Virus record (IMG/VR): IMGVR_UViG_3300042406_001320
Span: 1-50,442 of that record
Length of the DNA stretch: 50,442 bases
Source: a virus
Reading direction: 5' to 3' (one strand)
Under the pieces are notes generated by a model, which was not told where the DNA came from, ran no database searches, and saw only the letters and a program-made list of their open reading frames with translations. A program made the position numbers and the translations under genes. Shown here one piece after another: positions 6,206 through 48,440 of the stretch (position 1 is its first letter; the number at the start of each line of letters is the position of its first letter).

Positions 6206-6247
6206 ACGTTGATTTTCAACGTTCTATAGGACGTTAATTATCAACGT
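6206..6247 (-). promoter_or_regulatory. Two 25-base direct repeats, each an inverted repeat, before the RadA-like gene
   Basis: Positions 6206-6222 (ACGTTGA..TCAACGT) and 6231-6247 (ACGTTAA..TCAACGT, one mismatch in the arms) are palindromes with 7-base arms. Both are followed on the plus strand by TCTATA, giving a 25-base repeat unit. They sit between the 117-aa gene and the RadA-like gene. They could be tandem operators, or RNA hairpins that set relative expression. No U-tract follows, so they are not simple terminators. Confidence 0.55.
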
Positions 6248-6248
6248 T

Positions 6249-7644: not shown

Positions 7645-7679
7645 GGCATTTTGTTATAAATATTTTAAAGCTGGGAGTA

Positions 7680-14745: not shown

Positions 14746-14746
14746 A

Positions 14747-15706: not shown

Positions 15707-15710
15707 TTTT

Positions 15711-15740
15711 ATTATTTTTTATTATTTTTTATTATTTTTT
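15711..15740. repeat. Three tandem copies of a ten-base unit ATTATTTTTT
   Basis: ATTATTTTTT is repeated three times exactly, flanked by partial copies on both sides. It fills the leader of the SDR gene that starts at 15706. The adjoining 15740-15747 is a minus-strand TATAAATA box reaching into the end of the upstream methyltransferase-like gene. The A-tract spacing of about one helical turn would favour bent DNA. May be promoter architecture or replication slippage. Confidence 0.7.
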
Positions 15741-18151: not shown

Positions 18152-18190
18152 ATTATAAATTTATTTTGATTTGAGCCTATTATAGATAAA

Positions 18191-19168: not shown

Positions 19169-19170
19169 TT

Positions 19171-20175: not shown

Positions 20176-20188
20176 AAGTAAAATATAT

Positions 20189-20806: not shown

Positions 20807-20812
20807 AATAAA

Positions 20813-22350: not shown

Positions 22351-23020
22351 TATATAATATTTGAGCTGTTTGAAATTGCCATTCGTAATCTATATCAAAT
22401 GCCTCTAATTCATTCATAGGAAATAAAACAGGATCATTTTTTATTTTCCAACTACCAACCCATTTACCTTTACCTATACTATCTATTCTAGAAGCATATA
22501 AACAATGAGCTGCCTCATATGTTGTATCTACTGCTTTTGTATTTAATAAGTCTTGTCCTTCAGGCCATTTATTAAGTAACTCACCTTCATTATTCCAAAA
22601 ATAATTTTTTTTCTCTATAACAGCGAATAATCCTTCTTCATCCTGGTTTAAGTAAGTGTTAATAAAATTATCTATAGTACTTGTTTTTAATAATGGATTA
22701 CATCCACTCACTAAAATAACATACTTGTAAGGTAATTTATTATACCATTCAAATAAAACATCAATACCATTATCAACATTGGCTGATTCATAAGATCGTT
22801 TATAAATGTTAATAGGGTATTTATTACCTATACTAATTAGTTCATCTTCAAAAACAGATAAATAAATCTGATTGTTAGGTATATTTTCACAATCTAATAA
22901 TTTTTGTATAATAACATCAGTTAGAGTAGTATTACAAAATGGTTTAACCATTTTATTAGGCACTCTTTGAGAGTTTAAACGAGCCTGAACTATAAAACAA
23001 ATATCATTTACTGATTTCAT
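22334..23020 (-). CDS. CMP-nonulosonic acid (sialic/pseudaminic-type) cytidylyltransferase, 228 aa
   Basis: NeuA/PseF-type features: CFIVQARLNSQRVPNKMVKP (the QARxxSxRxPxKn CTP-binding loop), NNQIYLSVFEDELI, VILVSGCNPLLKTSTIDNFI where most homologues have xDPxxP, and a C-terminal EAFDIDYEWQFQTAQILY (IDxxxDF-like metal site). The length fits the family (about 230). Activates the keto-sugar made by the neighbouring synthase. The usual DxxxPL is GCNPLL here, a departure that should be checked for activity. Confidence 0.85.
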   Translation of the reverse strand: MKSVNDICFIVQARLNSQRVPNKMVKPFCNTTLTDVIIQKLLDCENIPNNQIYLSVFEDELISIGNKYPINIYKRSYESANVDNGIDVLFEWYNKLPYKYVILVSGCNPLLKTSTIDNFINTYLNQDEEGLFAVIEKKNYFWNNEGELLNKWPEGQDLLNTKAVDTTYEAAHCLYASRIDSIGKGKWVGSWKIKNDPVLFPMNELEAFDIDYEWQFQTAQILYNGFRN

Positions 23021-24075
23021 TGTATTTGATCTAAATTGAGGATTGTATTTTCATCAATAAAAGTCTTAGCTACTTTATTTATAAATTTATCTCTATCACT
23101 CCATTTAAATCCATCTCCAGGGCTAATCATATGAATTTTATCTTCAGTTATAATTTCTCCTGGTTGTATAAATATATTAGTTGCTAACGAACGTTCTAAT
23201 TTCTTTGAGGCTAATTCAATAGAATCATCTTTAAATAAAGCCATTTGGCCTAATCCTAATTCAAATGTTCTAATATCATGTAGTAACTGTTTTACCTCAT
23301 GAGACTCAGATGAACCAGCTTGATCAGTACCTTTCATATTCTTATCTAATGTGACATGTTTCTCTATAATTTCAGCTCCCATAGCGACAGCAGCTAGAGA
23401 AATATGAATACCTAATGAATGATCTGAGTAACCTATTTTATTATTAGGATATTTTTGTTTTAAATATTTTATAGTGTTTAAATTCAATCTACTAAACTCA
23501 GCTGGGTATTGAGATAAACAATGTAGTATTGAAATATCATAACTACTATTTTTATCAAATATTTCTAATGCTGTTTCTAATTCAGCTTCACCAGCCATAC
23601 CTGTAGATAGAATAACTGGTATTCTAGTTTTAGCTATAGCTTCAATTAAAGGTATATTAGTTAAATCTCTAGATGCTACTTTTATTTTATCAACAGGAGC
23701 TATATCTAGTAATTTTAAAGTCTTAAGTGAGCATAATGTTTCAATAAAATCAAAACCTAAACTTTTAATATACTTGCCTAACTCAGCATGTTGTTCATAA
23801 CTTAATTCTAAATATGCTCTATGTTCACCATATGTTTTACCAAATGAATGTTTACCAGTATATGGGGCTAACATTCCGTTTTTAGATAATTCTTCATCTA
23901 AATCTCTCTTAGTTAATTTAATAGCGTTAACTTTATTTAATCTGTCTCCACTTATTTCATCATATGGATACTGATTAAGTTGGTCAATTAATTTTTTAGC
24001 TATATCAATATCACCATTATGATTTTGCCCTACTTCAGCTATAAAGTATACTTCATTATTACTTTTTACAAACAT
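23017..24075 (-). CDS. N-acetylneuraminate/pseudaminate-type synthase, 352 aa
   Basis: NeuB family: FIAEVGQNHNGDIDIAKKLI at the start of the TIM barrel, DKIKVASRDLTNIPLIEAIA, PVILSTGMAGEAELETA, SILHCLSQYPAEFSRLNLNT, KIGYSDHSLG and IIEKHVTLDKNMKGTDQAGS. A C-terminal antifreeze/SAF domain (RSLATNIFIQPGEIITEDKI) is present. Condenses phosphoenolpyruvate with an N-acetyl amino sugar to make a nine-carbon acid. Members cannot be split into NeuB, LegI or PseI by eye. Immediately upstream of the cytidylyltransferase. Confidence 0.93.
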   Translation of the reverse strand: MFVKSNNEVYFIAEVGQNHNGDIDIAKKLIDQLNQYPYDEISGDRLNKVNAIKLTKRDLDEELSKNGMLAPYTGKHSFGKTYGEHRAYLELSYEQHAELGKYIKSLGFDFIETLCSLKTLKLLDIAPVDKIKVASRDLTNIPLIEAIAKTRIPVILSTGMAGEAELETALEIFDKNSSYDISILHCLSQYPAEFSRLNLNTIKYLKQKYPNNKIGYSDHSLGIHISLAAVAMGAEIIEKHVTLDKNMKGTDQAGSSESHEVKQLLHDIRTFELGLGQMALFKDDSIELASKKLERSLATNIFIQPGEIITEDKIHMISPGDGFKWSDRDKFINKVAKTFIDENTILNLDQIQ

Positions 24076-24076
24076 A

Positions 24077-24370
24077 TTATATTTCTTCTATTCGTTTTGT
24101 TTTATCACATATTAATAGATCATAAGGAGGTTTAACACCAACACTTAATTCATGATATTTACATCCCCATTCATCTAATTGTTGTTTAGTAATATTATAA
24201 TAATCAATTTTAGTGACACTACCTCTAGCTGTCCAATAAGTTATATGATGTCCTTCATCATATAGTTTATTTATTTTATTGATATTTTCTGAGTTTGGTT
24301 TAGCTAAAGAATATTCTCTTTCTTTATCATAAAAACAAATTGTCTCATCTATATCAACATAGATAATCAT
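24077..24370 (-). CDS. Small HAD-like phosphatase, 97 aa
   Basis: MIIYVDIDETICFYDKEREY carries the HAD motif I DxDxT (DIDET), and HHITYWTARGS motif II with the conserved Thr/Ser; motif III would be KPPYDLLICDKT. Short, as in cap-less HAD proteins such as capsule-associated phosphatases. It may remove phosphate from the product of the synthase gene just downstream, inferred from order only. The chosen ATG is 4 bases downstream of the preceding stop. Confidence 0.75.
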   Translation of the reverse strand: MIIYVDIDETICFYDKEREYSLAKPNSENINKINKLYDEGHHITYWTARGSVTKIDYYNITKQQLDEWGCKYHELSVGVKPPYDLLICDKTKRIEEI

Positions 24371-24374
24371 TATA

Positions 24375-25226
24375 TTATTTTTGATGTGGTGTTGGAGTTG
24401 GAGTAATTGCTCTACCAACCAATTGCTTCCAGTCTTGTTCTGGTCTAACTTCTAAATTAGTTTTCCAAGCTGCCTCAAGTGTATTCATATCAACACCTAA
24501 TTCTTTACCCATTGTAATTAACGCATTAATATCTTTAGGAAAACATGTTCCTCCAAATCCTAATTTACCATCATGACCAGGAACATTAGTATGTGAATTA
24601 CCAATACGAGGATCAGATACAAATCCTTCTAAAGCATCACTCCAATTTACCCCTAATACTTTAGACATTCTATAGAACTCATTTACAACAGATACTTTAA
24701 CAGCTAAAAATGTATTAGCCATATATTTAATAAATTCTGCTGTTGTAGTATCAGTTAGTATATAATGTTTCTGTCCAAAACGAGCTTTAAATAACTCTAA
24801 TACTTTTTCAGTATGTTGTTTATCACCTCCAATTACTACTCTAGATTGAGTCAACATATCTAGTTTAGCTGTTTTCTCAGTTAAAAACTCAGGACAAAAC
24901 ACTATATTAAAATTATATTTTTCATTTAGTAATTTTGTTGTACCTGGTAATACAGTTGATTTTAAAATAAAAATAGCGTTTGTATTATATAGACCAATGT
25001 TACTAAAGAAATTTTCAATATATGAATTATCTTGTTCACCATTTTCTTTCATTGGTGTTGGTAACGCTACAAATATAAAATCTTGAGATAATACTTCAAG
25101 TAATGTATGAGTTGCTTTAACAGGATTAATATCAAATATTTTAACATCAGCTACAGGTGAAAAAGCATATGCTTGAGATTCACCTACAAAACCATTTCCT
25201 ATAATACCTACTTTAAATTGTTTCAT
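24375..25226 (-). CDS. UDP-glucose/GDP-mannose dehydrogenase family protein lacking the C-terminal domain, 283 aa
   Basis: N-terminal NAD domain VGIIGNGFVGESQAYAF, FVALPTPMKENGEQD, ILKSTVLPGTT and FCPEFLTEKTA. The central dimerisation helix has TTTAEFIKYMANTFLAVKVS and the catalytic Cys is in KLGFGGTCFPKDINAL. It then stops soon after, ending in a Pro-Thr tail, so the usual C-terminal UDP-binding Rossmann domain of about 100-130 residues is missing. No frameshift remnant is visible after the stop. May be inactive, or have a different substrate. The start is at the ATG after a TTG-only extension. Confidence 0.85.
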   Translation of the reverse strand: MKQFKVGIIGNGFVGESQAYAFSPVADVKIFDINPVKATHTLLEVLSQDFIFVALPTPMKENGEQDNSYIENFFSNIGLYNTNAIFILKSTVLPGTTKLLNEKYNFNIVFCPEFLTEKTAKLDMLTQSRVVIGGDKQHTEKVLELFKARFGQKHYILTDTTTAEFIKYMANTFLAVKVSVVNEFYRMSKVLGVNWSDALEGFVSDPRIGNSHTNVPGHDGKLGFGGTCFPKDINALITMGKELGVDMNTLEAAWKTNLEVRPEQDWKQLVGRAITPTPTPHQK

Positions 25227-25839
25227 AAAATTTATTCTGTTTTTCTTGTCTTTCAATTGTTTTAGGATGTACTAATTCGTATCCTTCAGGTAAATTGGCT
25301 ATTGTTTTCCAACCCATAAGACGTTCATGTACTTTATTTTTCCATTGAATATCTTTTTTATTAGCACAAATACGTGTTTGATAATCTGGATAGTTAATCC
25401 AACCATTATCATCTACAAACCAGCGCCATTTATCAATATGGCTGCGAGTTAATCCTTCAACAGTGTTGATTCTAGGTACGGCGATTAAATCTACTAGACC
25501 TTTATTCATATCCAATATGTTATGAATATTTTCAGCTAAACCCTTACTTAGGTACTCATCAGCATCAATAAAAAATACCCAATCACGTGTACAGTGATTT
25601 TTAACATTATTCTTAAATGTTGCGAAGTCACCATTTAGTGAGGAAAGTATTCTATGATATTCAAATTTTTGACCAACATTGTATTTAGTAGCTACTTTCT
25701 TTACTTCATCTGTAGCTGTATTGTCTAACTGAACCATTATTTCATCTTCTGGTTTAACAATGGTTACTAATTGGTCTAATAGACGTTCTAATTCAATATG
25801 TTCATTCCAAGCGGTGATAGCAAAACTAATAGTAGTCAT
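25213..25839 (-). CDS. Family 2 glycosyltransferase, 208 aa
   Basis: ISFAITAWNEHIELERLLDQ with DEIMVQLDNTATDEVK (first acidic motif) and DWVFFIDADEYLSKGLAENI (DxD) are typical of GT2 proteins of the SunS/WaaE type (..NEE..I...L....W.DEI...D..S.D). A WRWFVDDNGWINYPDYQTRI block follows. About two-thirds of the usual length, so a minimal catalytic domain. Overlaps the dehydrogenase gene by 14 bases. Confidence 0.85.
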   Translation of the reverse strand: MTTISFAITAWNEHIELERLLDQLVTIVKPEDEIMVQLDNTATDEVKKVATKYNVGQKFEYHRILSSLNGDFATFKNNVKNHCTRDWVFFIDADEYLSKGLAENIHNILDMNKGLVDLIAVPRINTVEGLTRSHIDKWRWFVDDNGWINYPDYQTRICANKKDIQWKNKVHERLMGWKTIANLPEGYELVHPKTIERQEKQNKFYETI

Positions 25840-25848
25840 AATTTAATT

Positions 25849-26277
25849 TTAAATTAATCCAATATAATGACATGCTTCATCAAACTGTTCCTTACTAAAC
25901 ATCATTAATGTTTTAGGATCTGATTTGTGAGTAGCGCCTTTAAGTTTTTGTTTTTCTTCTTCTGTTGTTTCAATTGATTTAATACCTGCCCATCCCCAAT
26001 TATCTTTACTAGTACCATTTGCAAACACAGTACCTTTATCAGATATATTGATAACTGTTGGATACCAAACTCGTTTTTGATCATCTATAAATTTAATATC
26101 TTTATATAGTTCAGGCATTACTTCTTCTGTTTCAGTCATTAATTGACTACCTTCAATCATTAATTCATTAGTCATGAATCCACAGCTCATACAACTCCAA
26201 ACAGATATACCTTGTGGTTTATATTCATAACATGCATCTGAATTACAATGAGAACAAATTACTAATTTATCTTCCAT
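25849..26277 (-). CDS. Hypothetical protein with N-terminal zinc ribbon, 142 aa
   Basis: ICSHCNSDACYEYKPQG then WSCMSCGFMTNEL gives CxxC...CxxC, a zinc ribbon of about 28 residues. The rest, DQKRVWYPTVINISDKGTVF and a helical tail, is unrecognised. It sits between glycosyltransferase genes, but nothing in it points to sugar chemistry. Confidence 0.6.
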   Translation of the reverse strand: MEDKLVICSHCNSDACYEYKPQGISVWSCMSCGFMTNELMIEGSQLMTETEEVMPELYKDIKFIDDQKRVWYPTVINISDKGTVFANGTSKDNWGWAGIKSIETTEEEKQKLKGATHKSDPKTLMMFSKEQFDEACHYIGLI

Positions 26278-26279
26278 AA

Positions 26280-26465
26280 TTAAAATATTTTACTTTCTTT
26301 TGGTGGTGGGGTTTGAATACAAGTAGGGGTTATTTTTATTTGAGGTGTATCTTCAACTTCATCTAATTTATCTTTTATTTCATCCCATTGTTTAGGAGTA
26401 ATGTTATAAGAATTAGCCGCTGTAGCAAAACCTTTTAACCAAATAACAAAATCTCTACTTGTCAT
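26280..26465 (-). CDS. Hypothetical small protein, 61 aa
   Basis: A helical first 35 residues (RDFVIWLKGFATAANSYNIT; KQWDEIKDKLDEVEDT) followed by a Pro/Thr tail. Short proteins beginning DFVxWLKGF are frequent in T4-like phage genomes, but I cannot name a family. The ATG overlaps the upstream stop. Confidence 0.55.
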   Translation of the reverse strand: MTSRDFVIWLKGFATAANSYNITPKQWDEIKDKLDEVEDTPQIKITPTCIQTPPPKESKIF

Positions 26466-27799
26466 TAATCTAATTTTTTAAGTTTAGGTAAACTAATTTT
26501 AGGTGCTTCAGTAACTGAACCTAATTTTTTTAACGCTGGTAATTTAAGTTCAACTTGTTTAGGTACTCTAGTTTCAAAGATATTATTTAATATCTCAGCC
26601 ATTTTATCAAATGAGTAATTTGTTTTAGCAAAATGAGCTTGACGTTTAGCTTTTTCTAAATACTTATCATAATCATTATAAACTGATTTATAAGCATCAG
26701 CAACTTCACCATCGTTAGGAGTAAACCAACTTGATTCAGCTAATATCATATTTTTAGCTTGAGCTGACTTATGAACTGGATTTAAAGTACCATTCACTAA
26801 AACATTATATTCTGGATGTAAGAAATCAATATGTCCACTCCAATTACTAGCAATAATAGGTTTTTTAGATAAACTAAATTCAAGTAATGGTCTTCCAAAT
26901 CCTTCACCTTTAGTTAATGACACCATTGCTTTTATTTTATCATGGTTATATAAGTCATTTATATCCTTATCATCTAAATCACCATGTAACAAATAAATGT
27001 TTGGTAAATCACCTTTAACAGTACTTTTAATAGCATCAATCTTTTTAAGTACTTCATCTCTATCCATTATAGAGTTAGTTACTTGGGCTGTTTTTAAAAT
27101 TAAAGCTGGTTTGATTCCTTTTTTATTCTTAAATGTTTCTAAGAATGATTTAATCATGTAACCAACATTTTTTCTATCTTCACCTATATCACCTTGTAAC
27201 CAGTGGCCTACAAATAAGAAACAAAAACTTTCTTTAATTTCATCTAAAGCTAAAACTAAATCTGTTTCTTCTAACTCATCATTATTAATAGCGAAATATT
27301 TATTTAAATCAGCTCCCTCAAATAATACATCAACTGGTTTTTCTAATTTAATAACACCTACTAATTGTTGACTATTTTTATCTTTCTTTTCAAAAACAGA
27401 TTGTTCAAATACTTGTTTAGCATGATTTGATGACACTAAAGTCAAATCCATTCTATTAATACCTTCAATCCATGTTGGATCACATACTGTTGTTTCAATA
27501 CCTGCTGTGATACCAATATTACATTTACCAATTGGTTGAAACTCATTTGGTACTGTAATTTGAATCCAAACATCAGGTTGTTTAGGTAATTGAGGTTGGC
27601 GCCAAATTAAATCTAATAACTGTTTATCTTCAGTTTTATTAGGATCTAAAGCATTCCAAGCTGTGTTACCCCAACGTTGAGAAATAACTTTAACATCATA
27701 TTTGTCATATTTCAAAAGTGCTTTAACTATGTCTCTAGATCTAGCACCATACCCTGACATTGTTTCAAGAGGGCAACTTATAACTACTAATGGTTTCAT
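26465..27799 (-). CDS. GT4-type glycosyltransferase, 444 aa
   Basis: GT-B fold with the donor site KAMVSLTKGEGFGRPLLEFS (EGFG..LLE) at about residue 285, then KKPIIASNWSGHIDFLHPE. The first domain has CPLETMSGYGARSRDIVKAL, the G-rich acceptor loop, and a Rossmann core with CFLFVGHWLQ. It ends with a Lys-rich repeat of LKLPALKKLG-type heptads (LKLPALKK, SLPKLKKLD). Retaining transferase, cytoplasmic. The adjoining 476-aa gene encodes a similar enzyme. Confidence 0.88.
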   Translation of the reverse strand: MKPLVVISCPLETMSGYGARSRDIVKALLKYDKYDVKVISQRWGNTAWNALDPNKTEDKQLLDLIWRQPQLPKQPDVWIQITVPNEFQPIGKCNIGITAGIETTVCDPTWIEGINRMDLTLVSSNHAKQVFEQSVFEKKDKNSQQLVGVIKLEKPVDVLFEGADLNKYFAINNDELEETDLVLALDEIKESFCFLFVGHWLQGDIGEDRKNVGYMIKSFLETFKNKKGIKPALILKTAQVTNSIMDRDEVLKKIDAIKSTVKGDLPNIYLLHGDLDDKDINDLYNHDKIKAMVSLTKGEGFGRPLLEFSLSKKPIIASNWSGHIDFLHPEYNVLVNGTLNPVHKSAQAKNMILAESSWFTPNDGEVADAYKSVYNDYDKYLEKAKRQAHFAKTNYSFDKMAEILNNIFETRVPKQVELKLPALKKLGSVTEAPKISLPKLKKLD

Positions 27800-33589: not shown

Positions 33590-33963
33590 TTTTTAGCAAA
33601 TTGTACGAAATATACTTTAACAGCAAACTGTTTTTGCTCTTTTATCGATTTAAATGTATTATCTCCTCTTAGGTCATATAATTCTTTTCTTATTTTGTTA
33701 ACAATTGCCTCATCAATGTATCTCATCTCGCTATGACCATCTATTGTTTCAATTCCATCCATTTCAAAATCATATTTGATTCTAGGATATCTTTGTAGAA
33801 ATTCATTTTCAATTTCGTTAGCTTCATCTTTAGGAAACCATCCACTGAATATGACTTGTAAATTATATTTTTCTAATAATGGATGATCTTTAAATCTATC
33901 CTCAACATTAAATTCAGTTGTGATACCAAATTTACTTATTACAGGTGGATTTTTTATTTTCAT
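33586..33963 (-). CDS. Possible GIY-YIG-like nuclease domain, 125 aa
   Basis: ISKFGITTEFNVEDRFKDHP matches the K.GIT....R strand and helix of GIY-YIG-related (T5orf172/Mug113) domains. FPKDEANEIENEFLQRYPR fits the helix with the conserved A..IE. DGHSEMRYI parallels the G.(S/T)E active-site Glu. The first GIY Tyr is not visible. Single-domain; overlaps ThyX. Moderate to low confidence in activity. Confidence 0.5.
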   Translation of the reverse strand: MKIKNPPVISKFGITTEFNVEDRFKDHPLLEKYNLQVIFSGWFPKDEANEIENEFLQRYPRIKYDFEMDGIETIDGHSEMRYIDEAIVNKIRKELYDLRGDNTFKSIKEQKQFAVKVYFVQFAKK

Positions 33964-34610
33964 AGATTAAATGCTTCAATTGTTTCTTTAAATGGATTAC
34001 CTTCAATCTGTTTAACTAGGTCTAACATGTCTTGAGCTAATTGTCTTACTTCTACTTGAGCATGTTCACTATTTCTTAGTTGTTGAAAATGATAGAATGA
34101 GCGCCAGTTAAACATTACATCCATTGTAATTTGTGAGTTGAATGTTTTAAAGAAGCGAGCTGATTCTTTAGCTCGTTTACGACCTAGAATTGGTGTTAGG
34201 TCTTCTAAACATTTGTGATATAGTTGATTACCATACCTTGTATATTCATCTAATATATCAGCCCAATTTTTTCTTTGTAGATGTTCCATACTACAAGGAA
34301 TATCAGGCCAATCATTTGGAATATAGTACTTATCTTCCTTCAACTCCTTATATCTAGCACTCTCACCATTAACTGAAACACCAATGCGATGTTTAATTAA
34401 ATGGATATGAGTTGCTTGATCTACTGTTACTAAGAAATGTAATGATGATTTTTCAAATGGTGTATGATGTCCTTCACTTGCTAGCATTTTAAGTAGTTTA
34501 CCCACCCTAGCTTTCTTCTCATCAGTTATATCTCTAGATGTTGATGTCCAAGCCGATTGAGCGTGAATTAGATCTGAACCATAATAACCTAACAATTCTA
34601 CTTTATTCAT
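33960..34610 (-). CDS. thyX: FAD-dependent thymidylate synthase ThyX, 216 aa
   Basis: The ThyX signature RHRxxSxNxxSxRY is present as KHRIGVSVNGESARYKE at about residue 77. Other conserved parts are EGHHTPFEKSSLHFLVTVDQ, MEHLQRKNW and the C-terminal FNWRSFYHFQQLRNSEHAQV followed by EVRQLAQ. Makes dTMP from dUMP using FAD and methylenetetrahydrofolate. Length is normal (about 215-230). ATGA-like overlaps on both sides place it in the replication operon. Confidence 0.95.
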   Translation of the reverse strand: MNKVELLGYYGSDLIHAQSAWTSTSRDITDEKKARVGKLLKMLASEGHHTPFEKSSLHFLVTVDQATHIHLIKHRIGVSVNGESARYKELKEDKYYIPNDWPDIPCSMEHLQRKNWADILDEYTRYGNQLYHKCLEDLTPILGRKRAKESARFFKTFNSQITMDVMFNWRSFYHFQQLRNSEHAQVEVRQLAQDMLDLVKQIEGNPFKETIEAFNL

Positions 34611-35498: not shown

Positions 35499-35921
35499 CT
35501 AAAGTCTCCCAGCACCCTTATAATTTCTATTATAAGGATAACTACTTAGATTACTTATAATCACTCCTTCTCTTCTATTTGAAGCATGTACAAATTTATT
35601 ATTACCAATAAAAATACCACAATGCCATCCTGATGGTGATACACTACTATTAAAAAATACTATATCACCTATTTCTAAACTGGATTTAGATATTCGTTTT
35701 GTTTGGCTCCATTGTCTCCAAGCTACATTTTCTAATCGTTCATTATATACTTCTTTATATAAACGTTTAGTAAATTGAGAACAATCAATTCCTGTTTTAG
35801 AACTACCTCCTAAGCGATAAGGAGTACCTAACCACTCTCTAACAAATGAATCAAGTGTTTTAGTTTGTCCATAACTAAATACAGATAAACTTAAAAATAA
35901 TATTAATAATATCTTTTTCAT
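35499..35921 (-). CDS. Exported NlpC/P60 peptidoglycan endopeptidase, 140 aa
   Basis: Signal peptide MKKILLILFLSLSVFSYG followed by Q; then LGTPYRLGGSSKTGIDCSQF with the catalytic Cys at about residue 48, IGDIVFFNSSVSPSGWHCGI with the His at about 99, and FVHASNRREG as the third site. Such enzymes cut the D-Glu to diamino-acid bond. A role in lysis (Sec-exported endolysin) is likely but could also be wall remodelling. Its ATG overlaps the TGA of a tiny membrane peptide gene. Confidence 0.9.
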   Translation of the reverse strand: MKKILLILFLSLSVFSYGQTKTLDSFVREWLGTPYRLGGSSKTGIDCSQFTKRLYKEVYNERLENVAWRQWSQTKRISKSSLEIGDIVFFNSSVSPSGWHCGIFIGNNKFVHASNRREGVIISNLSSYPYNRNYKGAGRL

Positions 35922-37087: not shown

Positions 37088-38521
37088 CTAATTTGAGGAA
37101 TGAGATAAGTTAACATCTCCTAATATACAGTATTTAATGTTTTGAGTTACATCACTTGTAGCTACATTAATAGTAAAGAATGTGACTGGATTGATTGTAG
37201 AGAAATTAGTTCTAGTTATGTTATCATAATTAGTTGAGGTGAACCATAATACTTTATTTATCAATCTATAACCTGAATTGTGAGCTGCTATTAAATAAGT
37301 GTCACCTAAATCAAGTATACCATTTTCATTAACATCAGCTGCCTTCCATTGTTTAGTACCTGTCATTACTAAGCCTTGAGCTGTTACAGGTGGTGTACTT
37401 TCATTTTGTAATTCATTCCATATAGGAGTAAAATCAGCTGATGTTACACCTTGCATTGTTAATGATGGAACTAACTTATATGTTGAGTTTTGGTTTGGTA
37501 ATGTAAAAGTATAAGTACCGTTTGTAGCTACTGTTTTATAGTCTACAAGTTGATCAACACCATTTACTACTCTATAGAGTGTAAGTAATGGCCTTGATGA
37601 TAATCCAGCTGGTATGGTAACTGTACCTGATAATAAATTAGTTATAGCAACTACATTAGTAGTATTAGCAGTATAAAATCCAGTAAATGTAGCATCAGCT
37701 GGGTTAGTCCAAGTACCAAATTCAATTACATAGGCGCAACTAAAACTATTAGGTAAGTCATTCCAACAACCTCCTCCACCCCATTTAGTTACAGCATAGT
37801 GTTCTCCCCCAGCATTATTAGGTTCACCAGCGCACCAGTTGTTATATTGACCTGATATATTACCTGTTAATTGTCCATTAGCTGTTTTAATTAAAGTACC
37901 ATTTTCAGGACCAGCATCTACTCTCCAATATCCTTCTTGAGCAACATCTGATAATGCAAACCATATATTACTTTGAGGTACATTAGCTATAATAAAATCT
38001 TGTTCTGATTGTGAAGTAATTGTTACAAGATAACCTGTCTGCCCCTTAAATGTTTGTTGAGCAGACATTGATTTAGCTGTTGTATATATTTGAGTTGTAG
38101 CTACAGGTAAATAAAAGTGACCATTAATAGCATTATAATAATACCCTGTTGGGTTTACTGTTGTTGATATTGATATTTGAACATTACCTAAAGTAGCACC
38201 TGTATTTACTTTTAATGATGCTAAAGCATTATTAACATTAGCCATTGTACCTGTAAAACTTAAACGTGTTTGGTTTGTCCAAGAGTTATACCCAGTAGCA
38301 AATGATAAACCTGTAGTTGTAGTTATACTAAATGTTGTACCTGCTGGTGGGTTTATAAATCCAATTGATGTTAATAGTGTTTGTGAGCCAAATCCACTAA
38401 TAACAAATCCGCTTGCATCTTGACCAGCTAAGTTAACTTGATAAGTCCTACCTGGTGGAGCAGTAATTGACTGCCCAAATAACATAAATGGAAATAATAA
38501 TATGACCAGTAATAACCTCAT
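37088..38521 (-). CDS. Exported C-type-lectin protein with dockerin-like tail, 477 aa
   Basis: Signal peptide MRLLLVILLFPFMLFGQ. Residues 20-125 form a cadherin-like beta region. Residues 127-269 are a C-type lectin domain: FYLPVATTQIYTTAKSMSAQ, WFALSDVAQEGYWR, YNNWCAGEPNNAGGEHYAVT (EPN-type calcium/sugar motif) and CWNDLPNSFSCAYVIEF (WND). Residues 394-415 hold AADVNENGILDLGDTYLI, dockerin-like calcium ligands. It ends at GDVNLSHSSN, exactly the point where the T9SS protein at 41433 has the same motif before its last two domains, so the sorting tail is absent. Secreted carbohydrate binder. Confidence 0.85.
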   Translation of the reverse strand: MRLLLVILLFPFMLFGQSITAPPGRTYQVNLAGQDASGFVISGFGSQTLLTSIGFINPPAGTTFSITTTTGLSFATGYNSWTNQTRLSFTGTMANVNNALASLKVNTGATLGNVQISISTTVNPTGYYYNAINGHFYLPVATTQIYTTAKSMSAQQTFKGQTGYLVTITSQSEQDFIIANVPQSNIWFALSDVAQEGYWRVDAGPENGTLIKTANGQLTGNISGQYNNWCAGEPNNAGGEHYAVTKWGGGGCWNDLPNSFSCAYVIEFGTWTNPADATFTGFYTANTTNVVAITNLLSGTVTIPAGLSSRPLLTLYRVVNGVDQLVDYKTVATNGTYTFTLPNQNSTYKLVPSLTMQGVTSADFTPIWNELQNESTPPVTAQGLVMTGTKQWKAADVNENGILDLGDTYLIAAHNSGYRLINKVLWFTSTNYDNITRTNFSTINPVTFFTINVATSDVTQNIKYCILGDVNLSHSSN

Positions 38522-39930
38522 AAGTTAATCTTACTTCCTATTAGGAAAAACGACAATATAGGAAAATCAGGGTTGGTAGACAAATTTGCTTTATAATTAA
38601 CATTGAATTTAAATCGCCTTGTTAACTGATAGTCAAATCCACTACCTATAAACGCACTAAATGTTCTATCTGTTGTTGTCACTTTATCTACAGTAGAATA
38701 TATTAATGGTGTTGATATAATATACAACTCAGGAGATATAGTTAAACGTTTATTTGCTTTAAATGGTTTAGTATAGAATGCTGTTATTGATGGTGATATA
38801 AATGTGTTTTTCTGTTCACCAGTTATTAATGTCATAGCAGCACTAGTATTAAATCCAGTTACACCCCATTTACCAGCATTTAGTATTCCACTATAACCAA
38901 CAAATCCAATTACATTACCATATGAATAAACACCAGTTAAATTAATGTTATGTACCCATTTTAACTTACCATTTTTACTAAAGTTAATTTTAGTGTATTT
39001 ACCTGATAAGGCAAATTGTTTAAAATTAAACCATATCATTGATGTTAATCCCCAACTTGACATTCCTGTCATTGAGGATTGATTCATACTTAAATTAAGT
39101 ATAGGTGTGAATGTCTTATCTAGATTTTGAGCTGTTGTAAAGTCAGATGATACTATTAGGGGATTAGTTGTTCCACTTTTACCTCCATTTTTTCCACCTT
39201 TACCTCCTCCCCCACCTCCGCTACTGCTATTATCGTCTTTAGAGCTATTTTGGTTTTGTTGATCTACATTCATTGTTGTAGTACCAGCTACTTCTTCTCC
39301 TTTTTGTTCAGTCCTAGTAGTAGTTTTAGCATCTCCTTCATTACCGCCACTATTATTGCCCCCGCTAGTACCGCCATTACCCCCGCCATTTTGATTGTTT
39401 CCTCCACTGTTTGAAGAACTAGTTGAACCTTGGTTATTATTGTTGTTTTCATTATTTTTAGTTTTATTATCCCCATCTTTATTGTTTTTAGAAGCAGCAT
39501 CACTTGACCCAGCTGATGAAGCATTAGCAGTTGATGCTGATGTAGCAACACCAGTGATAGTACTTGAGGCTGCAGATTGAGCTTGACTCATAATACTACC
39601 AACTACACTTTGTACAGTGTTGCCTATAATTTGAGATGTGATTTGATTTTGTGTTACTTGTCCTTGCTGCTGTCCACAAGGAGATACTTTACGGTAATCA
39701 GCATAAACTTGATTAACCCAAGAGGCAAATACTCCACTTTGAACATCAGCTGATGTAAATTGTCTTGATTGGCCTAAAAAGAAAATAACAGTACCTGTAG
39801 CAGGAACTGAAAAATAAGTTACTTGACCAGTGCAAGGATCTGTAAATTGATGGGTAAGAGTTTGCCCATTAATGTTTTCTGTCGCTAAAAAGAGCAACAG
39901 CAAGGTGAAGTATATTCTTAATTTTCTCAA
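38518..39930 (-). CDS. Exported outer-membrane-barrel protein with Gly/Asn/Ser linker, 470 aa
   Basis: Starts at TTG: MRKLRIYFTLLLLFLATENI is a signal peptide and no in-frame ATG exists before residue 100. Residues 25-90 form a small domain with paired Cys (DPCTG, SPCG). Residues 95-260 are low-complexity Ala/Ser then Asn/Gly, including runs such as SSSGGGGGGKGGKNGGKSGT. Residues 265-470 are alternating beta strands (LSGKYTKINFSKNGKLKWVH, TFISPSITAFYTKPFKANKR) ending FFLIGSKINL, the look of an outer-membrane barrel. Probably anchors in the host outer membrane. Confidence 0.7.
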   Translation of the reverse strand: MRKLRIYFTLLLLFLATENINGQTLTHQFTDPCTGQVTYFSVPATGTVIFFLGQSRQFTSADVQSGVFASWVNQVYADYRKVSPCGQQQGQVTQNQITSQIIGNTVQSVVGSIMSQAQSAASSTITGVATSASTANASSAGSSDAASKNNKDGDNKTKNNENNNNNQGSTSSSNSGGNNQNGGGNGGTSGGNNSGGNEGDAKTTTRTEQKGEEVAGTTTMNVDQQNQNSSKDDNSSSGGGGGGKGGKNGGKSGTTNPLIVSSDFTTAQNLDKTFTPILNLSMNQSSMTGMSSWGLTSMIWFNFKQFALSGKYTKINFSKNGKLKWVHNINLTGVYSYGNVIGFVGYSGILNAGKWGVTGFNTSAAMTLITGEQKNTFISPSITAFYTKPFKANKRLTISPELYIISTPLIYSTVDKVTTTDRTFSAFIGSGFDYQLTRRFKFNVNYKANLSTNPDFPILSFFLIGSKINL

Positions 39931-40049: not shown

Positions 40050-40805
40050 TTATTGCATTTTAAATATACCTTTCTTATGCATGCGGAGTAATATTTTACC
40101 CGCTGCTATTTCAAGTGCTTTTTTAGTTGAGGTACCTATTGTTGATTGATTAAATTTAACCTCACTAAAGTTATCATCATTCATTAATGTTAATTCTCTA
40201 ACTGTTTTAGCATCACCTAAACCTGAACCAGTGAAATATTCTCCAGTTTCAGCATTAACAAATTTAACTTGTAAACCTAAACGAGTTACAACTGTGTTTT
40301 TAACTCCGTCTTTCATATTCACTGTCTCATCTTCTGAAACTGAGAAATCATAGCATTCAATATAGACAAAGTAGTGAGCTAATCTAATTTTACCTCTACC
40401 ATCTAATTTATCTTGAGTAATTCCAGCTTGTGATGCTTGGAATTGCTTAACCATTCTATTTTTAATTTCAGTTTTGTCTTCAGTAAAGGTAAAGTGGTTA
40501 GTTTCCTCTAAGAATTCAACTACAATATTAGTTACACCTAAACCTACTCTTTTATCCTTCAATTCAGGATACATAGCATAGACATCTTCACTGATGCCTA
40601 AGCTAAGTATCTGAATTGGGATTTTAGGGCCATCATAATCTAATAGACTATCAATATTTGATTTTTTTTCAAATGATGCTTTATAATCTTCAGTTACAGT
40701 TTTACCTACAACTTGAGCAGTACACTTATTAGCTAGTGTAAACATTAGTATAAAGTATGCTATTATACCAATAATTGCTTTAATCATATTAGATTTTTTT
40801 TCCAT
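40050..40805 (-). CDS. CsgG-like outer-membrane secretion-pore protein, 251 aa
   Basis: After an N-terminal hydrophobic segment (KAIIGIIAYFILMFTLANKC), the body follows the CsgG pattern: KRVGLGVTNIVVEFLEETNH, FTFTEDKTEIKNRMVKQFQ, RGKIRLAHYFVYIECYDFSV, NTVVTRLGLQVKFVNAETGE, YFTGSGLGDAKT and NQSTIGTSTKKALEIAAGKI. In Enterobacteria and Bacteroidota CsgG forms the nine-subunit outer-membrane channel that exports curli subunits. Here it is in a phage, without recognisable CsgA, B or E. I chose the ATG just after the upstream stop. A normal lipobox is not clear (ANKC). Confidence 0.75.
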   Translation of the reverse strand: MEKKSNMIKAIIGIIAYFILMFTLANKCTAQVVGKTVTEDYKASFEKKSNIDSLLDYDGPKIPIQILSLGISEDVYAMYPELKDKRVGLGVTNIVVEFLEETNHFTFTEDKTEIKNRMVKQFQASQAGITQDKLDGRGKIRLAHYFVYIECYDFSVSEDETVNMKDGVKNTVVTRLGLQVKFVNAETGEYFTGSGLGDAKTVRELTLMNDDNFSEVKFNQSTIGTSTKKALEIAAGKILLRMHKKGIFKMQ

Positions 40806-40806
40806 T

Positions 40807-41070
40807 TTACTCTTCGGTTGGAGTTTCTTCTGATTTATTACCTTTTTTAGCATTGATAAACTTGTCAATAGATCCAATACCAAATGAACCTAAAACAATA
40901 ACCATAAAGCCATCAAAGATAAACTCATTAATAACAAATTCTTCACCAGCAAATCCTGTAAAGATGTCAACGCCTAAAGCGATTACCATCATAAAGAAAG
41001 CGATAAATCCTACAACTGATTTTTCATTGATTGTGTTGTTGTCATCAAACAACTCTTTAATCCATTTCAT
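40807..41070 (-). CDS. Two-helix membrane protein, holin-like, 87 aa
   Basis: Hydrophobic segments SVVGFIAFFMMVIALGVDIF and INEFIFDGFMVIVLGSFGIG with a short extracytoplasmic loop, a charged N-terminus and an acidic-basic C-tail. The size and topology match small class II holins but also many other membrane proteins. It lies just before the CsgG-like gene; the lysis hydrolase is 5 kb away, so the holin assignment is only a suggestion. Confidence 0.45.
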   Translation of the reverse strand: MKWIKELFDDNNTINEKSVVGFIAFFMMVIALGVDIFTGFAGEEFVINEFIFDGFMVIVLGSFGIGSIDKFINAKKGNKSEETPTEE

Positions 41071-41091: not shown

Positions 41092-41421
41092 TTACCATTT
41101 TGGTTCTTCTGAAAATTCTTTTTTCTTCGGAGCAGGAGCTGGAGCAGCTGGCTTTTCAACTATTTTTTCTTTAATTATAGTTGTATTACCACCTGCAGCT
41201 TGTTGTTGCTGTTGAGTGTTGTTAATAACAATAGTTGGTTGAGCTGGAGCAGCTTGTTCTGTTTTAGCTTCTTCTTTGTCCTCACTATGGCCACCAAAAA
41301 ATGTAGTGGTAACCCAAGTACCAGCGCCTAATACAGCTGTGCTAAGTGTTCCAATAATTGTTTTCTTAAGACCTGACCATGTTCCGTCATTATGGTCTTG
41401 TACATTTGTTTCTTCTGACAT
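41092..41421 (-). CDS. Membrane-tethered Ala/Pro/Gln-rich protein, 109 aa
   Basis: Residues 18-45 hold a weak hydrophobic helix (IIGTLSTAVLGAGTWVTTTFF), then an acidic stretch, a Gln run (NTQQQQQ), NTTIIKEKIVEKPAAPAPAP and a charged end. The Ala-Pro part resembles a flexible periplasmic linker. No family recognised. Between the T9SS gene and the two-helix gene. Confidence 0.5.
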   Translation of the reverse strand: MSEETNVQDHNDGTWSGLKKTIIGTLSTAVLGAGTWVTTTFFGGHSEDKEEAKTEQAAPAQPTIVINNTQQQQQAAGGNTTIIKEKIVEKPAAPAPAPKKKEFSEEPKW

Positions 41422-41432
41422 GTTATTTAATT

Positions 41433-43325
41433 TTAAATTTTAACAAATTGTTTTGCTAAACGTTTTTGATTTTCATTGTCTAATACTAATAAGTAACGTC
41501 CGTTAGCAGCTGATGTTAAATCAACTTGCTTAATAACAGTTGTTACATAATCATCACTCCATATTCTACCAATGTCTTTAATTTTACGACCTTGAATATC
41601 ATATACTGTAGCTAATGATGTCATATTTGATTTAGGAAATACTACTACTAATTCAAAGAATCCACTTGTTGGGTTTGGTCTAATTGTAGCTGTAATTTCA
41701 CCATCTGGAGTTGGTATTAATGATTGTCTTGTAGCTAATACTACATAATCAGATAATAAATTAATATTGAAATGATCTCCATTTCTATCAGCGGCATCCA
41801 TTAAGCTTCTAACATATACGTTAGTCATAATGTCGTTAGTACCAATTGGAGAGAATTTTAATTTAAATGGAGTAGCATTACCAGTTAATGATCCTAATAT
41901 TTGGTTATTCATTCCTCCAAAGCGAATAATACCATTAGCATCATCGTGAGTCATATATTGTAACCAAGGTCCTTGAATGTTTGATATGATTTCCTCAAAT
42001 TTAACTTTAGTTGGATCATATCTCATTTCAAATTGTAAGCCATCATTTTTAATACCATTTGTGTTGATATTAAAATTAGCATACATTGCTTGACCAGTTG
42101 GAGCAGTTACATTTGGAATATTAACATCAAGTGTTCCAATATATCTAGCAGCTGCTACTAAATCACCATTTGCGTTATATACTGGAGATGAATGTGTTCT
42201 GTCAGCATCACCTAAAATGAAGTATTTAATATCCACACCTGTTAAGTTAACTAATCCAACACTATCATAAATGTAAGTTACACCGTTAATATGAGATGAC
42301 CAGTCATTCCATTGGTTTACACCTAATGCTAATGAATCATAAGTATTTTTAGCAAACGCATTTATTAATTTAGTTGTATCAATTGGTTTTAATCCTGATA
42401 CTGAGGCATAGATTGAATAAGCATCACCACCATCTAAAGTACCTGTTTTATTAACATCAGCAATCAAGTATGCTAATCCATTTCTTAAATATGTTCTTGG
42501 AAATGTCTGGTTAACATCTGTATTAGTATATTCATCATATGTCTTAACAGCATCAGCTATTGTCACAGCATTGTCTCTAATAGTAGCAAGTGGAGATGGA
42601 AACTTAACATCTAGTTTATACCTTGTATTTTCATCAATATTATCTAAAGTATAAGTACCATCAGCATTTACTGTTACTGAATCGATAAATGCGTTATTGT
42701 TTGCTTGATAACACCAAATAACAGGCTTTAATGTCATTTGAGGACCTAACCATACTTTACCTGATAATGTTAAATTACCTAATAATTTAATAGCTAATCT
42801 TTGGTTTGTAAGTTGAGCTACATTATCACCAATTGTAGCACCATTAACATCAAACATACGAGCCCAGTTCACAGTAATTGTATCTGATACGTAGTTTGGA
42901 GCTACAGCGTTAATCTTATACTTGTTATGGATAATATAACCATTAGATCCAATAGTAGATCCACTTGACAATACTAAATAGTTACGTCCTACAGTCCAAT
43001 CTGTATTTGAAGTGTAAGTATAAGTACCATTTGAGTAGGTATTATACTTGTAGTTATCCCAAGTTTTATAACTTACTGATGGAGTCATTCCATTAACAGC
43101 AGCGTCAACTGTAGTTGAGATATAAGTTAATAATGTTTTCTTGTACTGCCAGTCAACCTGGAATGTACGAATATCAGGTGAACCTGGTCTGTAGTACCAA
43201 GCTACATCTAATGTATCTCCCCTTCTTACAGTAGCAAGAGTCTGGAAGTGACCAATTTGAGGGGTTTGGGCGAATGTAGTTACATAACTAATTAAAAGCG
43301 AAAGGGCTAATAATAGTTTTTTCAT
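41433..43325 (-). CDS. Secreted T9SS-sorted multidomain protein, 630 aa
   Basis: Signal peptide MKKLLLALSLLISYVTTFA. Residues 25-180: cohesin-like beta sandwich (DIRTFQVDWQYKKTLLTYIS). 195-270: CnaB/carboxypeptidase-like repeat (SVTVNADGTYTLDNIDENTR). 287-312: dockerin-like DVNKTGTLDGGDAYSI, then FILGDADRTHSSP. 400-535: second cohesin-like domain (DGLQFEMRYDPTKVKFEEII). 545-630: type IX secretion C-terminal sorting domain (IRPNPTSGFFELVVVF, ATVYDIQGRKIKDIG, DLTSAANGRYLLVL, AKQFVKI). The sorting domain is characteristic of Bacteroidota and requires the host T9SS for outer-membrane export. Probably cell-surface anchored. Confidence 0.88.
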   Translation of the reverse strand: MKKLLLALSLLISYVTTFAQTPQIGHFQTLATVRRGDTLDVAWYYRPGSPDIRTFQVDWQYKKTLLTYISTTVDAAVNGMTPSVSYKTWDNYKYNTYSNGTYTYTSNTDWTVGRNYLVLSSGSTIGSNGYIIHNKYKINAVAPNYVSDTITVNWARMFDVNGATIGDNVAQLTNQRLAIKLLGNLTLSGKVWLGPQMTLKPVIWCYQANNNAFIDSVTVNADGTYTLDNIDENTRYKLDVKFPSPLATIRDNAVTIADAVKTYDEYTNTDVNQTFPRTYLRNGLAYLIADVNKTGTLDGGDAYSIYASVSGLKPIDTTKLINAFAKNTYDSLALGVNQWNDWSSHINGVTYIYDSVGLVNLTGVDIKYFILGDADRTHSSPVYNANGDLVAAARYIGTLDVNIPNVTAPTGQAMYANFNINTNGIKNDGLQFEMRYDPTKVKFEEIISNIQGPWLQYMTHDDANGIIRFGGMNNQILGSLTGNATPFKLKFSPIGTNDIMTNVYVRSLMDAADRNGDHFNINLLSDYVVLATRQSLIPTPDGEITATIRPNPTSGFFELVVVFPKSNMTSLATVYDIQGRKIKDIGRIWSDDYVTTVIKQVDLTSAANGRYLLVLDNENQKRLAKQFVKI

Positions 43326-43798: not shown

Positions 43799-43832
43799 AC
43801 TTTTAATTAGTCAGGTATAAATATAAAAAAAA

Positions 43833-43854
43833 GACGGTTCATTATTGAACCGTC
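43833..43854 (-). terminator. Rho-independent terminator after the Thr-Pro-linker gene
   Basis: Minus-strand GACGGTTC, a short AATAAT loop and GAACCGTC form an eight-base perfect stem followed by a run of T. It lies just beyond the stop of the 210-aa gene and before the exported-protein operon. Confidence 0.9.
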
Positions 43855-43877
43855 CTTTACTTTTTTAATTTAATTTA

Positions 43878-44571: not shown

Positions 44572-44585
44572 CTTTTAAAAAATTG

Positions 44586-44988
44586 TGGAGGAGACCGGAA
44601 TCGAACCGGTGTATCCGTAAGGAACAATAACACCAGCGTATCACATGCTTATCAAGATTTTTCACACCGCTCTTGCTGACGGTGGTAATGGTTCGACTTG
44701 GCCAATACGCCATACTTGGGGCCGTTAGTTTTGGTTAACGTGCCATCCACCACCTAATTTTATGAAACTAGGAAAACTAAAGTGCTGTTCTGTTGCAAGG
44801 CTATCAGCTGCCCCTTGCGGATTAGGCTGCAAGAGCGTAATCGGCGCCTACGAATGACATTAAGTCATCGAAGGTCATAGTTGACAATTCGTTGTCATTT
44901 ATTTGTTGAAAGTTTGTTTAAAGGCGACACATCCAACCGCCTGCATGTAGTGGTATCTTCACATTACGGAGCAATACCTGGCTCCCCC
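44586..44988 (-). ncRNA. ssrA: tmRNA (SsrA), about 403 nt, with an unusually long open tag frame
   Basis: The tRNA-like ends pair: 5' GGGGGAG with 3' CTCCTCC, including the G3-U70 pair that marks alanine tRNA, and the T-arm ACCGG TTCGATT CCGGT. Discriminator is A; CCA is not encoded (CAA follows). The tag reads ...GADYALAA then TAA at 44822-44824. The frame is open back through DNELSTMTFDDLMSFV to about 44899, right after the first pseudoknot (GGCG..CGCC). If translation resumes at the usual distance from that pseudoknot the tag is about 24 residues. Rescues stalled ribosomes. Confidence 0.92.
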
Positions 44989-46519: not shown

Positions 46520-48157
46520 TTAATAACCTAATTCAGAACTAAAATTATCTTCTTTTTTCTTCTCAGTTGGTTCTTCATGAATAACAGACTCAGTTGTTAA
46601 TATAGTGCCAGCTACAGCAGCAGCATTTTCAACTGCTAAACGAGTTACTTTAGTTGGATCTAAAATACCTTCATCCTCCATATTAACAAATGTCTCTGAT
46701 TTTAAATCATATCCAAACCAAGTACCATCTAATTTACCTAATTCATATAAATAATAAGTTGGGTTAGATAAACCAGCGTTTTCTAATATTTGAATAAACG
46801 GTGATGATAATGCTGAATAAACAATTTTCTTACCTGTATTAAAATCATCACTATCTTCTTTAGATGTAGTAATAGCTTCTCTAGCATATAATAACGCTGC
46901 GCCTCCACCTGGTAATACTCCTTCTTCAACAGCGGCGCGAGTGGCAAATAAAGCGTCTTCAACTCTATCTTTATACTCTTTTAACTCAATTTCATTATTA
47001 CCACCTACATTAATAATAGCTACACCACCAATTAACTTACCTAAACGTTCTTGAAGTTTTTCTTTCTCAAACATTGATTGAGCTTTATCAATTTGTTGTT
47101 TAATTTCTTCAGCACGAGCAGTAATTGCTTCTTCACTACCTTTACCATCAACAACAGTTGTTTTCTCTTTTTCAACTGTCACTGTTCTAGCTTTACCTAA
47201 GTAAGCTGATAATTGAGCTACATTAAGTTTATCAAGTTTTAATCCTTTTTCTTTACTAATAACTTGACCACCAGTTACAATAGCTAAATCTTCTAATAAT
47301 AATGTTCTACGTTCACCAAAATCAGGTGCTTTAACAGCTACTACTTTAACAATACCTCTCATCTTATTTACAATAAGAGTTGCTAATGCTTCACCATCAA
47401 TATCTTCAGCTACAATCAATAATGATTTATTTTCACTATTTACTTTTTGTAATACATTTAATAATTCAGCAGCTGCTATAATTCTACCATCATAAATTAA
47501 AACATAAGGGTCTTCTAATACTGCCTGCATTGTACTATTATTAGTTACAAAGTAAGGTGATTTAAAACCTCTATCAAACTGAATGCCTTCAACTACTTCA
47601 AGTGTTGTTTCACCTGTTTTACTTTCTTCAATAGCAACTACTCCATCACGACCTACTTTTTCAAGAGCTGTAGCTACTAAATTACCTGTAAATTCATCAT
47701 TATTAGATGAAATAGTAGCTACTTGTTTTAATTGTTCTTCTGATGAAATGTCTCTACTGTTTTTCTTTAAGGCGCTAACTACTTGTTTAACAGCGGCATC
47801 AATACCTTTTTTAATTTCAACAGCATTGGCTCCAGCTCTAACTTTGCTCAAACCTTCTTTAACCATAGTGTTAGCCAAAAGAGTAGTAGTGGTAGTACCA
47901 TCTCCAGCTGTGTTGGCTGAACGTATTGCAGCTTGTTTAACAATTTCAGCCCCAATATTTTCAATTGGATCTTTAAGTTTGATTGATTTTGCGACTGTGA
48001 CTCCATCTTTAGTTGATTGAGGTAATTCATTTTCTTTTTCAATAATAACATTACGACCAAATGGACCTAATGTTGTGACAACAGCTTTAGATAACTTATC
48101 TACGCCGTCAGCTAGTTTTTGTCTAGCGTCTGTGTTATAAACTATAATTTTACTCAT
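46520..48157 (-). CDS. groL: GroEL (60-kDa chaperonin), 545 aa
   Basis: Full-length Hsp60: KLSKAVVTTLGPFGRNVIIE, NTAGDGTTTTTLLANTMVKE (the ATP-site GDGTTT), GIQFDRGFKSPYFVTN, apical SLLIVAEDIDGEALATLIVN and ALFATRAAVEEGVLPGGGAA with the catalytic Asp in RVEDALF. The C-terminus lacks the Gly-Gly-Met tail and ends in a polar KKKEDNFSSELGY. Overlaps GroES by 8 bases, giving a groES-groEL operon. Folds phage proteins in the cytoplasm. Confidence 0.97.
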   Translation of the reverse strand: MSKIIVYNTDARQKLADGVDKLSKAVVTTLGPFGRNVIIEKENELPQSTKDGVTVAKSIKLKDPIENIGAEIVKQAAIRSANTAGDGTTTTTLLANTMVKEGLSKVRAGANAVEIKKGIDAAVKQVVSALKKNSRDISSEEQLKQVATISSNNDEFTGNLVATALEKVGRDGVVAIEESKTGETTLEVVEGIQFDRGFKSPYFVTNNSTMQAVLEDPYVLIYDGRIIAAAELLNVLQKVNSENKSLLIVAEDIDGEALATLIVNKMRGIVKVVAVKAPDFGERRTLLLEDLAIVTGGQVISKEKGLKLDKLNVAQLSAYLGKARTVTVEKEKTTVVDGKGSEEAITARAEEIKQQIDKAQSMFEKEKLQERLGKLIGGVAIINVGGNNEIELKEYKDRVEDALFATRAAVEEGVLPGGGAALLYAREAITTSKEDSDDFNTGKKIVYSALSSPFIQILENAGLSNPTYYLYELGKLDGTWFGYDLKSETFVNMEDEGILDPTKVTRLAVENAAAVAGTILTTESVIHEEPTEKKKEDNFSSELGY

Positions 48158-48440
48158 AAATTGATAGAATTTCTGTTTCTTTAGTTACAATATAATCTTC
48201 TCCATCTACAGTGATTTTGACTGATCCCATTTTAGGAATAAGTACTTTTTGGCCAGGTATTAATTTAGACTTAACATAATCTCCTGTATGCCAATTGTAA
48301 GTGTCACTCACTGATATTACTTCTCCAATTTCAGGTTTTTCTTTACCTAAATCAGGAATAACAATATTACCGTAGGTTTGTTCTTCAAACTCAATAGGTT
48401 TAATAATAACATGACCATTAACTGGTGTTAATTTATTCAT
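48150..48440 (-). CDS. groS: GroES (10-kDa co-chaperonin), 96 aa
   Basis: MNKLTPVNGHVIIKPIEFEE followed by the mobile-loop region EEQTYGNIVIPDLGKEKPEI (GGIVLP equivalent is GNIVIP), then EIGEVISVSDT and YVKSKLIPGQKVLIPKMGSV, ending YIVTKETEILSIYE. Full length. Lids the GroEL encoded just downstream. Confidence 0.93.
   Translation of the reverse strand: MNKLTPVNGHVIIKPIEFEEQTYGNIVIPDLGKEKPEIGEVISVSDTYNWHTGDYVKSKLIPGQKVLIPKMGSVKITVDGEDYIVTKETEILSIYE

Follow-up and report, generated by a model that had tools for sequence, protein, structure and literature searches.

A type A T9SS sorting domain on a phage protein and the conserved cassette of putative exported proteins around it

A sorting domain of the type IX secretion system (T9SS) at the end of a phage protein raises the question of whether a virus might use the export machinery of its host to place a product of its own on the outside of the infected cell, and what such a product would do there. 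The protein considered here, henceforth the cargo, is encoded in the window (the whole stretch of viral DNA that was analyzed, 50,442 nucleotides long). An earlier note, made from the letters of the window, had proposed for it a Sec signal peptide, two cohesin-like sandwiches and a C-terminal T9SS domain, and had read from these a host among the Bacteroidota and display of the protein through the gliding/secretion machinery of that host. The features of the cargo and of the genes around it are collected in Table 1.

Table 1. Features of the cassette and of the cargo, with positions in the window
Feature	Position	Strand	Basis or remark
Terminator-like hairpin with T tail, 13 pairs	43829..43858	minus	just upstream of the first gene of the cassette
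First gene of the cassette, for a predicted exported protein of 158 aa	43322..43798	minus	signal peptide by eye; conserved family
T9SS cargo gene	41433..43325	minus	630-aa open frame, ATG start
Cargo: Sec-type signal peptide, residues 1-20, MKKLLLALSLLISYVTTFAQ	43266..43325	minus	by eye; conserved in 18/18 aligned homologues
Cargo: N-terminal beta sandwich, cohesin-like, residues 21-183	42777..43265	minus	all-beta AlphaFold2 model and PDB cohesin matches
Cargo: CarboxypepD_reg-like domain, residues 184-242	42600..42776	minus	PF13620 in homologues
Cargo: dockerin-like region, residues 250-380	42186..42578	minus	EF-like loop DVNKTGTLDGGD
Cargo: cohesin domain, residues 395-538	41712..42143	minus	PF00963 in homologues; fold matches
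Cargo: T9SS type A C-terminal sorting domain (CTD), residues 549-630	41436..41681	minus	PF18962, TIGR04183, seven strands
Small protein, one hydrophobic segment, Pro/Ala-rich tail	41092..41421	minus	conserved beside the cargo
Small membrane protein, hydrophobic, resembling a holin in appearance only	40807..41070	minus	no family above cut-off
Predicted exported protein, probable CsgG-like fold	40050..40805	minus	likely start ATG at 40805; fold matches
Predicted exported protein, Gly/Ser/Asn-rich linker, conserved C-terminal domain	38518..39930	minus	alignment
Predicted exported C-type lectin, dockerin-like C terminus	37088..38521	minus	PF00059; PDB profile match

The sorting domain and the architecture of the cargo

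The four motifs on which the sorting-domain call had been based are present at the C terminus of the cargo. In profile searches the window copy matched PF18962 over residues 550-626 with 28.3 bits against a cut-off of 27 (E 2.2e-6), but with the NCBIfam model TIGR04183 (residues 549-628) it reached 22.5 bits, 0.5 under the cut-off of 23. The call is borderline if the window copy is taken alone, and we therefore used its homologues to decide. In an alignment of 18 full-length sequences, comprising the window cargo and 17 others with 56-93% identity to it, PF18962 was matched by all 18 and TIGR04183 by 15, while four more distant relatives scored 27.7-35.7 bits with TIGR04183, all over the cut-off. 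These matches, along with those of a cultured phage given below, rule out a chance hit and bear out the domain assignment. The whole window holds a single PF18962 place, which is that in the cargo, and exactly one was likewise found in each of the eight phage records searched. The AlphaFold2 model of the region has seven strands spanning residues 545-629, with pLDDT of about 67-87 per ten-residue block, and a median dN/dS of 0.21 indicates purifying selection on the CTD.

The nearest isolate is Flavobacterium phage immuto, whose host is Flavobacterium sp. LMO8 and in which the cargo is split into two proteins, gp014 and gp015. The latter has its own signal peptide, matches the Cohesin family PF00963 over the cut-off (36.7 bits), and scores 34.6 bits with PF18962 and 44.8 bits with TIGR04183, both clearly over their cut-offs. 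The window also encodes GroEL and GroES (46520-48157 and 48150-48440), and its GroEL is closest to that of immuto, with 57.5% identity. The T9SS is known in the genus Flavobacterium, and the assignment of the host to the Bacteroidota is supported by these relationships. A ThyX-like thymidylate synthase of the window (33960-34610) has its nearest relative in an unassigned spring-water phage (69.6%), followed by cyanophages. The study of phages of strain LMO8 by Nilsson et al. 2020 makes no mention of immuto or of its virion proteomics.

The Sec signal peptide proposed earlier was recognized by eye and is conserved across the 18 aligned sequences. Two cohesin-like sandwiches are likewise a reasonable reading: cohesins with solved structures are among the top PDB fold matches of the cargo, with target TM of about 0.7-0.8 (the match table does not state which of the two sandwiches was aligned), and 10 of the 18 homologues match PF00963. 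The best fold match to the cargo, a UniProt entry assigned to an uncultured phage, is already named after the sorting domain. A PDB flavodoxin match (E 0.01) was judged to be due to chance, as it was not repeated by profile search. Two further elements were absent from the earlier note, namely the CarboxypepD_reg-like domain, for which PF13620 was matched by 11 of the 18 homologues (best E 2.7e-4; the window copy is below the cut-off), and the dockerin-like loop, DVNKTGTLDGGD, at residues 290-301 (42423-42458), between the sandwiches. In the alignment of 18 sequences D290, N292, D298 and D301 of this loop are invariant, and the loop pattern is found in 102 of 111 homologues, though some of these matches lie elsewhere in the protein. 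No match to Pfam dockerin was obtained, and confidence in the cargo model is low in this region; the dockerin assignment is thus a motif-level call, both here and in the lectin discussed below.

Relatives of the cargo were recovered from 37 viral loci at first, and from more than 100 viral loci overall. In one of these (L014) the cargo is 100% identical to that of the window; this locus may stem from the very same virus or from a nearly identical one. No relative turned up when 84,980 genomes of bacteria and archaea were scanned with two short peptide patterns, which distant relatives may escape. Within the limit of that two-pattern scan, the cargo looks like a phage family rather than a recently acquired host gene. 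A host gene or contamination is ruled out by the viral record, the more than 100 viral loci, the presence in a cultured phage and the negative result of that two-pattern genome scan.

A conserved cassette of predicted exported proteins

The order of the genes in Table 1, from that of the 158-residue protein to that of the lectin, is nearly constant in related phages, with extra genes sometimes interposed. Four-base overlaps are seen between two neighboring gene pairs, including that of the 158-residue protein and the cargo, and signal peptides were recognized by eye in the products of five genes: those of the 158-residue protein, the cargo, the CsgG-like protein, the linker-bearing protein and the lectin. 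This arrangement points to a conserved, operon-like cassette of exported proteins. The lectin matches PF00059 with 25.6 bits (cut-off 22.6), and its profile finds PDB C-type lectins with an E-value of 5e-13. Its C-terminal part carries a dockerin-like loop, DVNENGILDLGD, and is similar to the central part of the cargo, at about 30% over some 200 residues. The linker-bearing protein matched no family in profile searches and is possibly an outer-membrane barrel; the possibility that it is CsgF was dropped (hhalign probability 2.4). A Zot-like PHROG match of the small protein with the Pro/Ala-rich tail was weak (E 0.0015) and a TssN match of the small hydrophobic protein was below the cut-off; neither was used.

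Among the best 20 PDB matches of the model of the 40050..40805 product (pLDDT 48), nearly all are CsgG chains, the best of them with an E-value of 9.4e-4, a probability of 1.00 and, for this low-confidence model, a TM of about 0.25. We take this as suggestive only of a CsgG fold. By sequence, the family matched neither PF03783 nor CsgG, and comparison of the cassette with E. coli CsgG and CsgF did not detect any similarity, CsgE also being negative.

An NlpC/P60 peptidase with a signal peptide recognized by eye, probably an exported endolysin, is encoded elsewhere in the window, at 35499-35921; in the loci of most relatives the endolysin is of the GH19 type instead. Genes resembling those of glycosyltransferases, sugar epimerases and aminotransferases, also recognized by eye, form a long stretch over 11782-27799 and suggest that the phage remodels surface sugars as well. 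Changes of the host surface by phages are known, through lipopolysaccharide. A tmRNA with the tag DNELSTMTFDDLMSFVGADYALAA lies at 44585-44988, beside eight tRNA genes.

Of 116 loci, 78 contain an endolysin-like gene, and since such genes are so often nearby, the timing of the cassette could be late and its role lytic. The cassette might accordingly be a lysis or egress module, in which the candidate CsgG-fold protein and the possible barrel would open up the outer membrane as infection ends, with the cargo and the lectin as accessories at the outer face that weaken or cap the envelope. The CsgG-like fold of the model and the NlpC/P60 gene of the window are consistent with this, as is the proposal that a CsgGF pore regulates lysis in Melnitz, which also bears a tmRNA (PMC9004378). 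However, such a module leaves the surface sorting tag, the cohesin scaffold and the sugar-binding partner without a reason, and likewise the exchange of the CTD described below. Moreover, the CsgG assignment comes from a low-confidence model, and the holin and spanin assignments are based on appearance only. We consider it an unlikely account, albeit one with some weight.

A lipoprotein gene in place of the sorting domain

A search with the family of the CsgG-like protein returned more than 500 loci, of which the best 80 further ones were studied; proportions among these are not those of the whole population. A cargo homologue with a CTD is present in about half of these 80, and most of the cargos without a CTD stop right after the cohesin domain. 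In these latter loci, which we term the sister clade, the shorter cargo is followed by a gene for a predicted lipoprotein of about 120 residues. In a single hhalign comparison, as opposed to a database search, the lipoprotein aligned with nearly the whole CTD (probability 85.9, E 5.3e-6; 1.2 or less for control pairs). PF18962 was weakly matched by 8 of 16 lipoproteins, with a best E-value of 0.0021 that is below Pfam's own standards, and is the family matched by the largest number of them. A cysteine is present in all the listed sequences and a strict lipobox pattern in 26 of 33. In those with the strict lipobox, the third position after the lipid cysteine is acidic in 24 of 26, as against 8% acidic residues in the remaining mature protein. 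For F. johnsoniae the predicted surface-lipoprotein signal is SDDFE (PMC5080379). The sister-clade pattern is not identical to it, but like the Bacteroidetes surface-lipoprotein signal it has a putative lipid cysteine followed by polar and then acidic residues (PMC5080379); this holds for the sister clade and not for the window.

Two different predicted export tags thus occupy the same place in the cassette, and the protein is best explained as one that needs to reach the cell surface. The exchange can be read, like the domains and the conserved cassette, from the sequences themselves, and we regard it as the best evidence that the cargo would be located on the surface of the infected cell. 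The display proposed in the earlier note is strengthened by it, but the part of that proposal that concerned gliding is not: the CTD is of type A, and no link to gliding adhesins was found.

The two states of the locus also differ in the putative binding partner. The CTD and the dockerin-like lectin co-occur in 69 of the 72 loci that could be assessed, and the lipoprotein loci are without the lectin in 21 of 21. As many loci are near copies of one another, they were thinned at 97% identity, which left 21 of 23 and 13 of 13, respectively. Two of the three exceptions among the 72 (L082 and L088) keep a remnant of the cargo (5977-6467 and 7201-7691, respectively): most of the gene is missing, and in a short frame part of the 158-residue protein family is fused with the final portion of the CTD. 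The third (L125) has, in the place of the lectin, a PA14-domain protein with a dockerin-like N-terminal part (9885-11090), a possible swap of the binding module. Two other loci (L057 and L059, 792-4775) have a cargo homologue with neither CTD nor lipoprotein, and the next gene there encodes a 768-residue protein joining a lectin, a dockerin-like loop and a cohesin. In a tree of the CsgG-like family, with the branch read after removal of two cut-off loci, the lipoprotein rows fall on one side of a branch with support of 58/81. The tree is compatible with one, weakly supported switch between CTD and lipoprotein, and repeated independent loss of the CTD is not supported by it. With a single such switch, the association of CTD and lectin is to be read as a correlation across one split and not as repeated evolution.

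The lipoprotein could also be read differently. As a CTD-like domain occurs there as a separate protein, it may be usable without the T9SS, and the CTD of the cargo might be a relic or a mere protein-protein contact, with the cargo remaining periplasmic or being secreted by another route. The purifying selection on the CTD, the persistence of the type A profile in distant phages and the position at the extreme C terminus argue against this, and we think it quite improbable. Least credible of all is a virion role, with the cargo and the lectin as receptor-binding or decoration proteins and the CTD as one more Ig-like domain: phage tails often bear Ig-like and lectin folds, and a gene shortly downstream in one sister-clade locus (L089) is similar to a structural protein of Flavobacterium phage virions, but the signal peptides on five neighboring proteins and the sister-clade lipoprotein signal do not fit cytoplasmic assembly, the cargo matches no structural PHROG family, and in immuto the cassette adjoins replication genes.

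A putative surface scaffold and its relation to known systems

The reading that we favor, with a probability of roughly 0.68, is that the phage makes a cargo which is exported through Sec and the host T9SS, anchored at the surface, and used there to dock a sugar-binding partner. The cargo would be made during infection and taken by its signal peptide through Sec into the periplasm, where the T9SS of the host would recognize the type A CTD, move the protein across the outer membrane and leave it on the surface. Its cohesin-type sandwiches may then serve as a scaffold for a dockerin-like partner from the same cassette, which would be the C-type lectin or, in one relative, the PA14 protein. The T9SS export, the cohesin-dockerin binding and the biological role are what we infer from the sequences. 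The infected cell would thereby acquire a layer that is made by the phage and binds sugars, with masking of the surface against other phages, or holding of new hosts near the cell about to lyse, as its likeliest uses; the data favor neither over the other. More tentatively, the cassette might define a lineage of Bacteroidota phages with a dedicated surface-display operon that forms a cellulosome-like adhesive coat. Such an operon could perhaps combine a cohesin scaffold, exchangeable sugar-binding partners, and either the T9SS or a surface-lipoprotein route; we rate this as less likely than not.

The exchange of the CTD for a lipoprotein can be regarded as an experiment of nature, from which a surface location can be argued on sequence grounds. 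Furthermore, the cassette is carried by the cultured phage immuto, which grows on Flavobacterium sp. LMO8, and export, superinfection and cell aggregation are thus directly testable. The findings suggest that infected Bacteroidota cells are made to show a phage-encoded sugar-binding coat by a large, freshwater phage family, in which cassette-bearing contigs of about 290-317 kb are also found (L100, L107 and L113).

A T9SS tag on a phage protein is not new. It is known from Cryophage, for which genes with type A tags were described, hijacking of the host T9SS was proposed, and the cargos were suggested to act in superinfection or in competition between strains (Bellas et al. 2020, PMC7468147). 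The type A sorting domains on genes of a Bacteroidota phage are shared with the present case, but the Cryophage cargos belong to a variable, accessory set of genes (endoglucanase, GH39, PA14; PMC7468147), whereas here a single conserved cargo gene is part of a cassette that is itself conserved, that has cohesin and dockerin-like parts, and in which a lipoprotein can take the place of the sorting domain. T9SS sorting-domain proteins are also present in the phage contigs of crAss-BACON cluster 2, where they carry BACON domains instead of cohesins and such a cassette is not described (PMC6949934). In the open-access papers we found neither an earlier description of the cassette, of its cohesin, dockerin and lectin parts or of the lipoprotein exchange, nor a conserved phage operon that brings a scaffold and a lectin of its own to the cell exterior by way of the T9SS.

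The phage curli modules with CsgG and CsgF (PMC7029224, PMC9004378), for which 'sibling capture' was proposed in pelagimyophages (PMC7029224), may resemble the cassette in having a CsgG-type outer-membrane protein beside small hypothetical proteins, and Melnitz combines a CsgG-type gene with its tmRNA (PMC9004378), as the window phage may do. As far as these two papers report, the curli modules have no T9SS cargo or lectin. Like the cohesin-dockerin systems of cellulosomes, the cassette has cohesin folds, and EF loops of a dockerin-like kind occur in the partner proteins, but it is phage-borne, has no dockerin family match and no cellulosomal enzymes, and its binding is putative. What the present locus adds to these systems is a cassette conserved across many phages, its cohesin, dockerin-like and lectin organization, and a lipoprotein alternative to the sorting domain.
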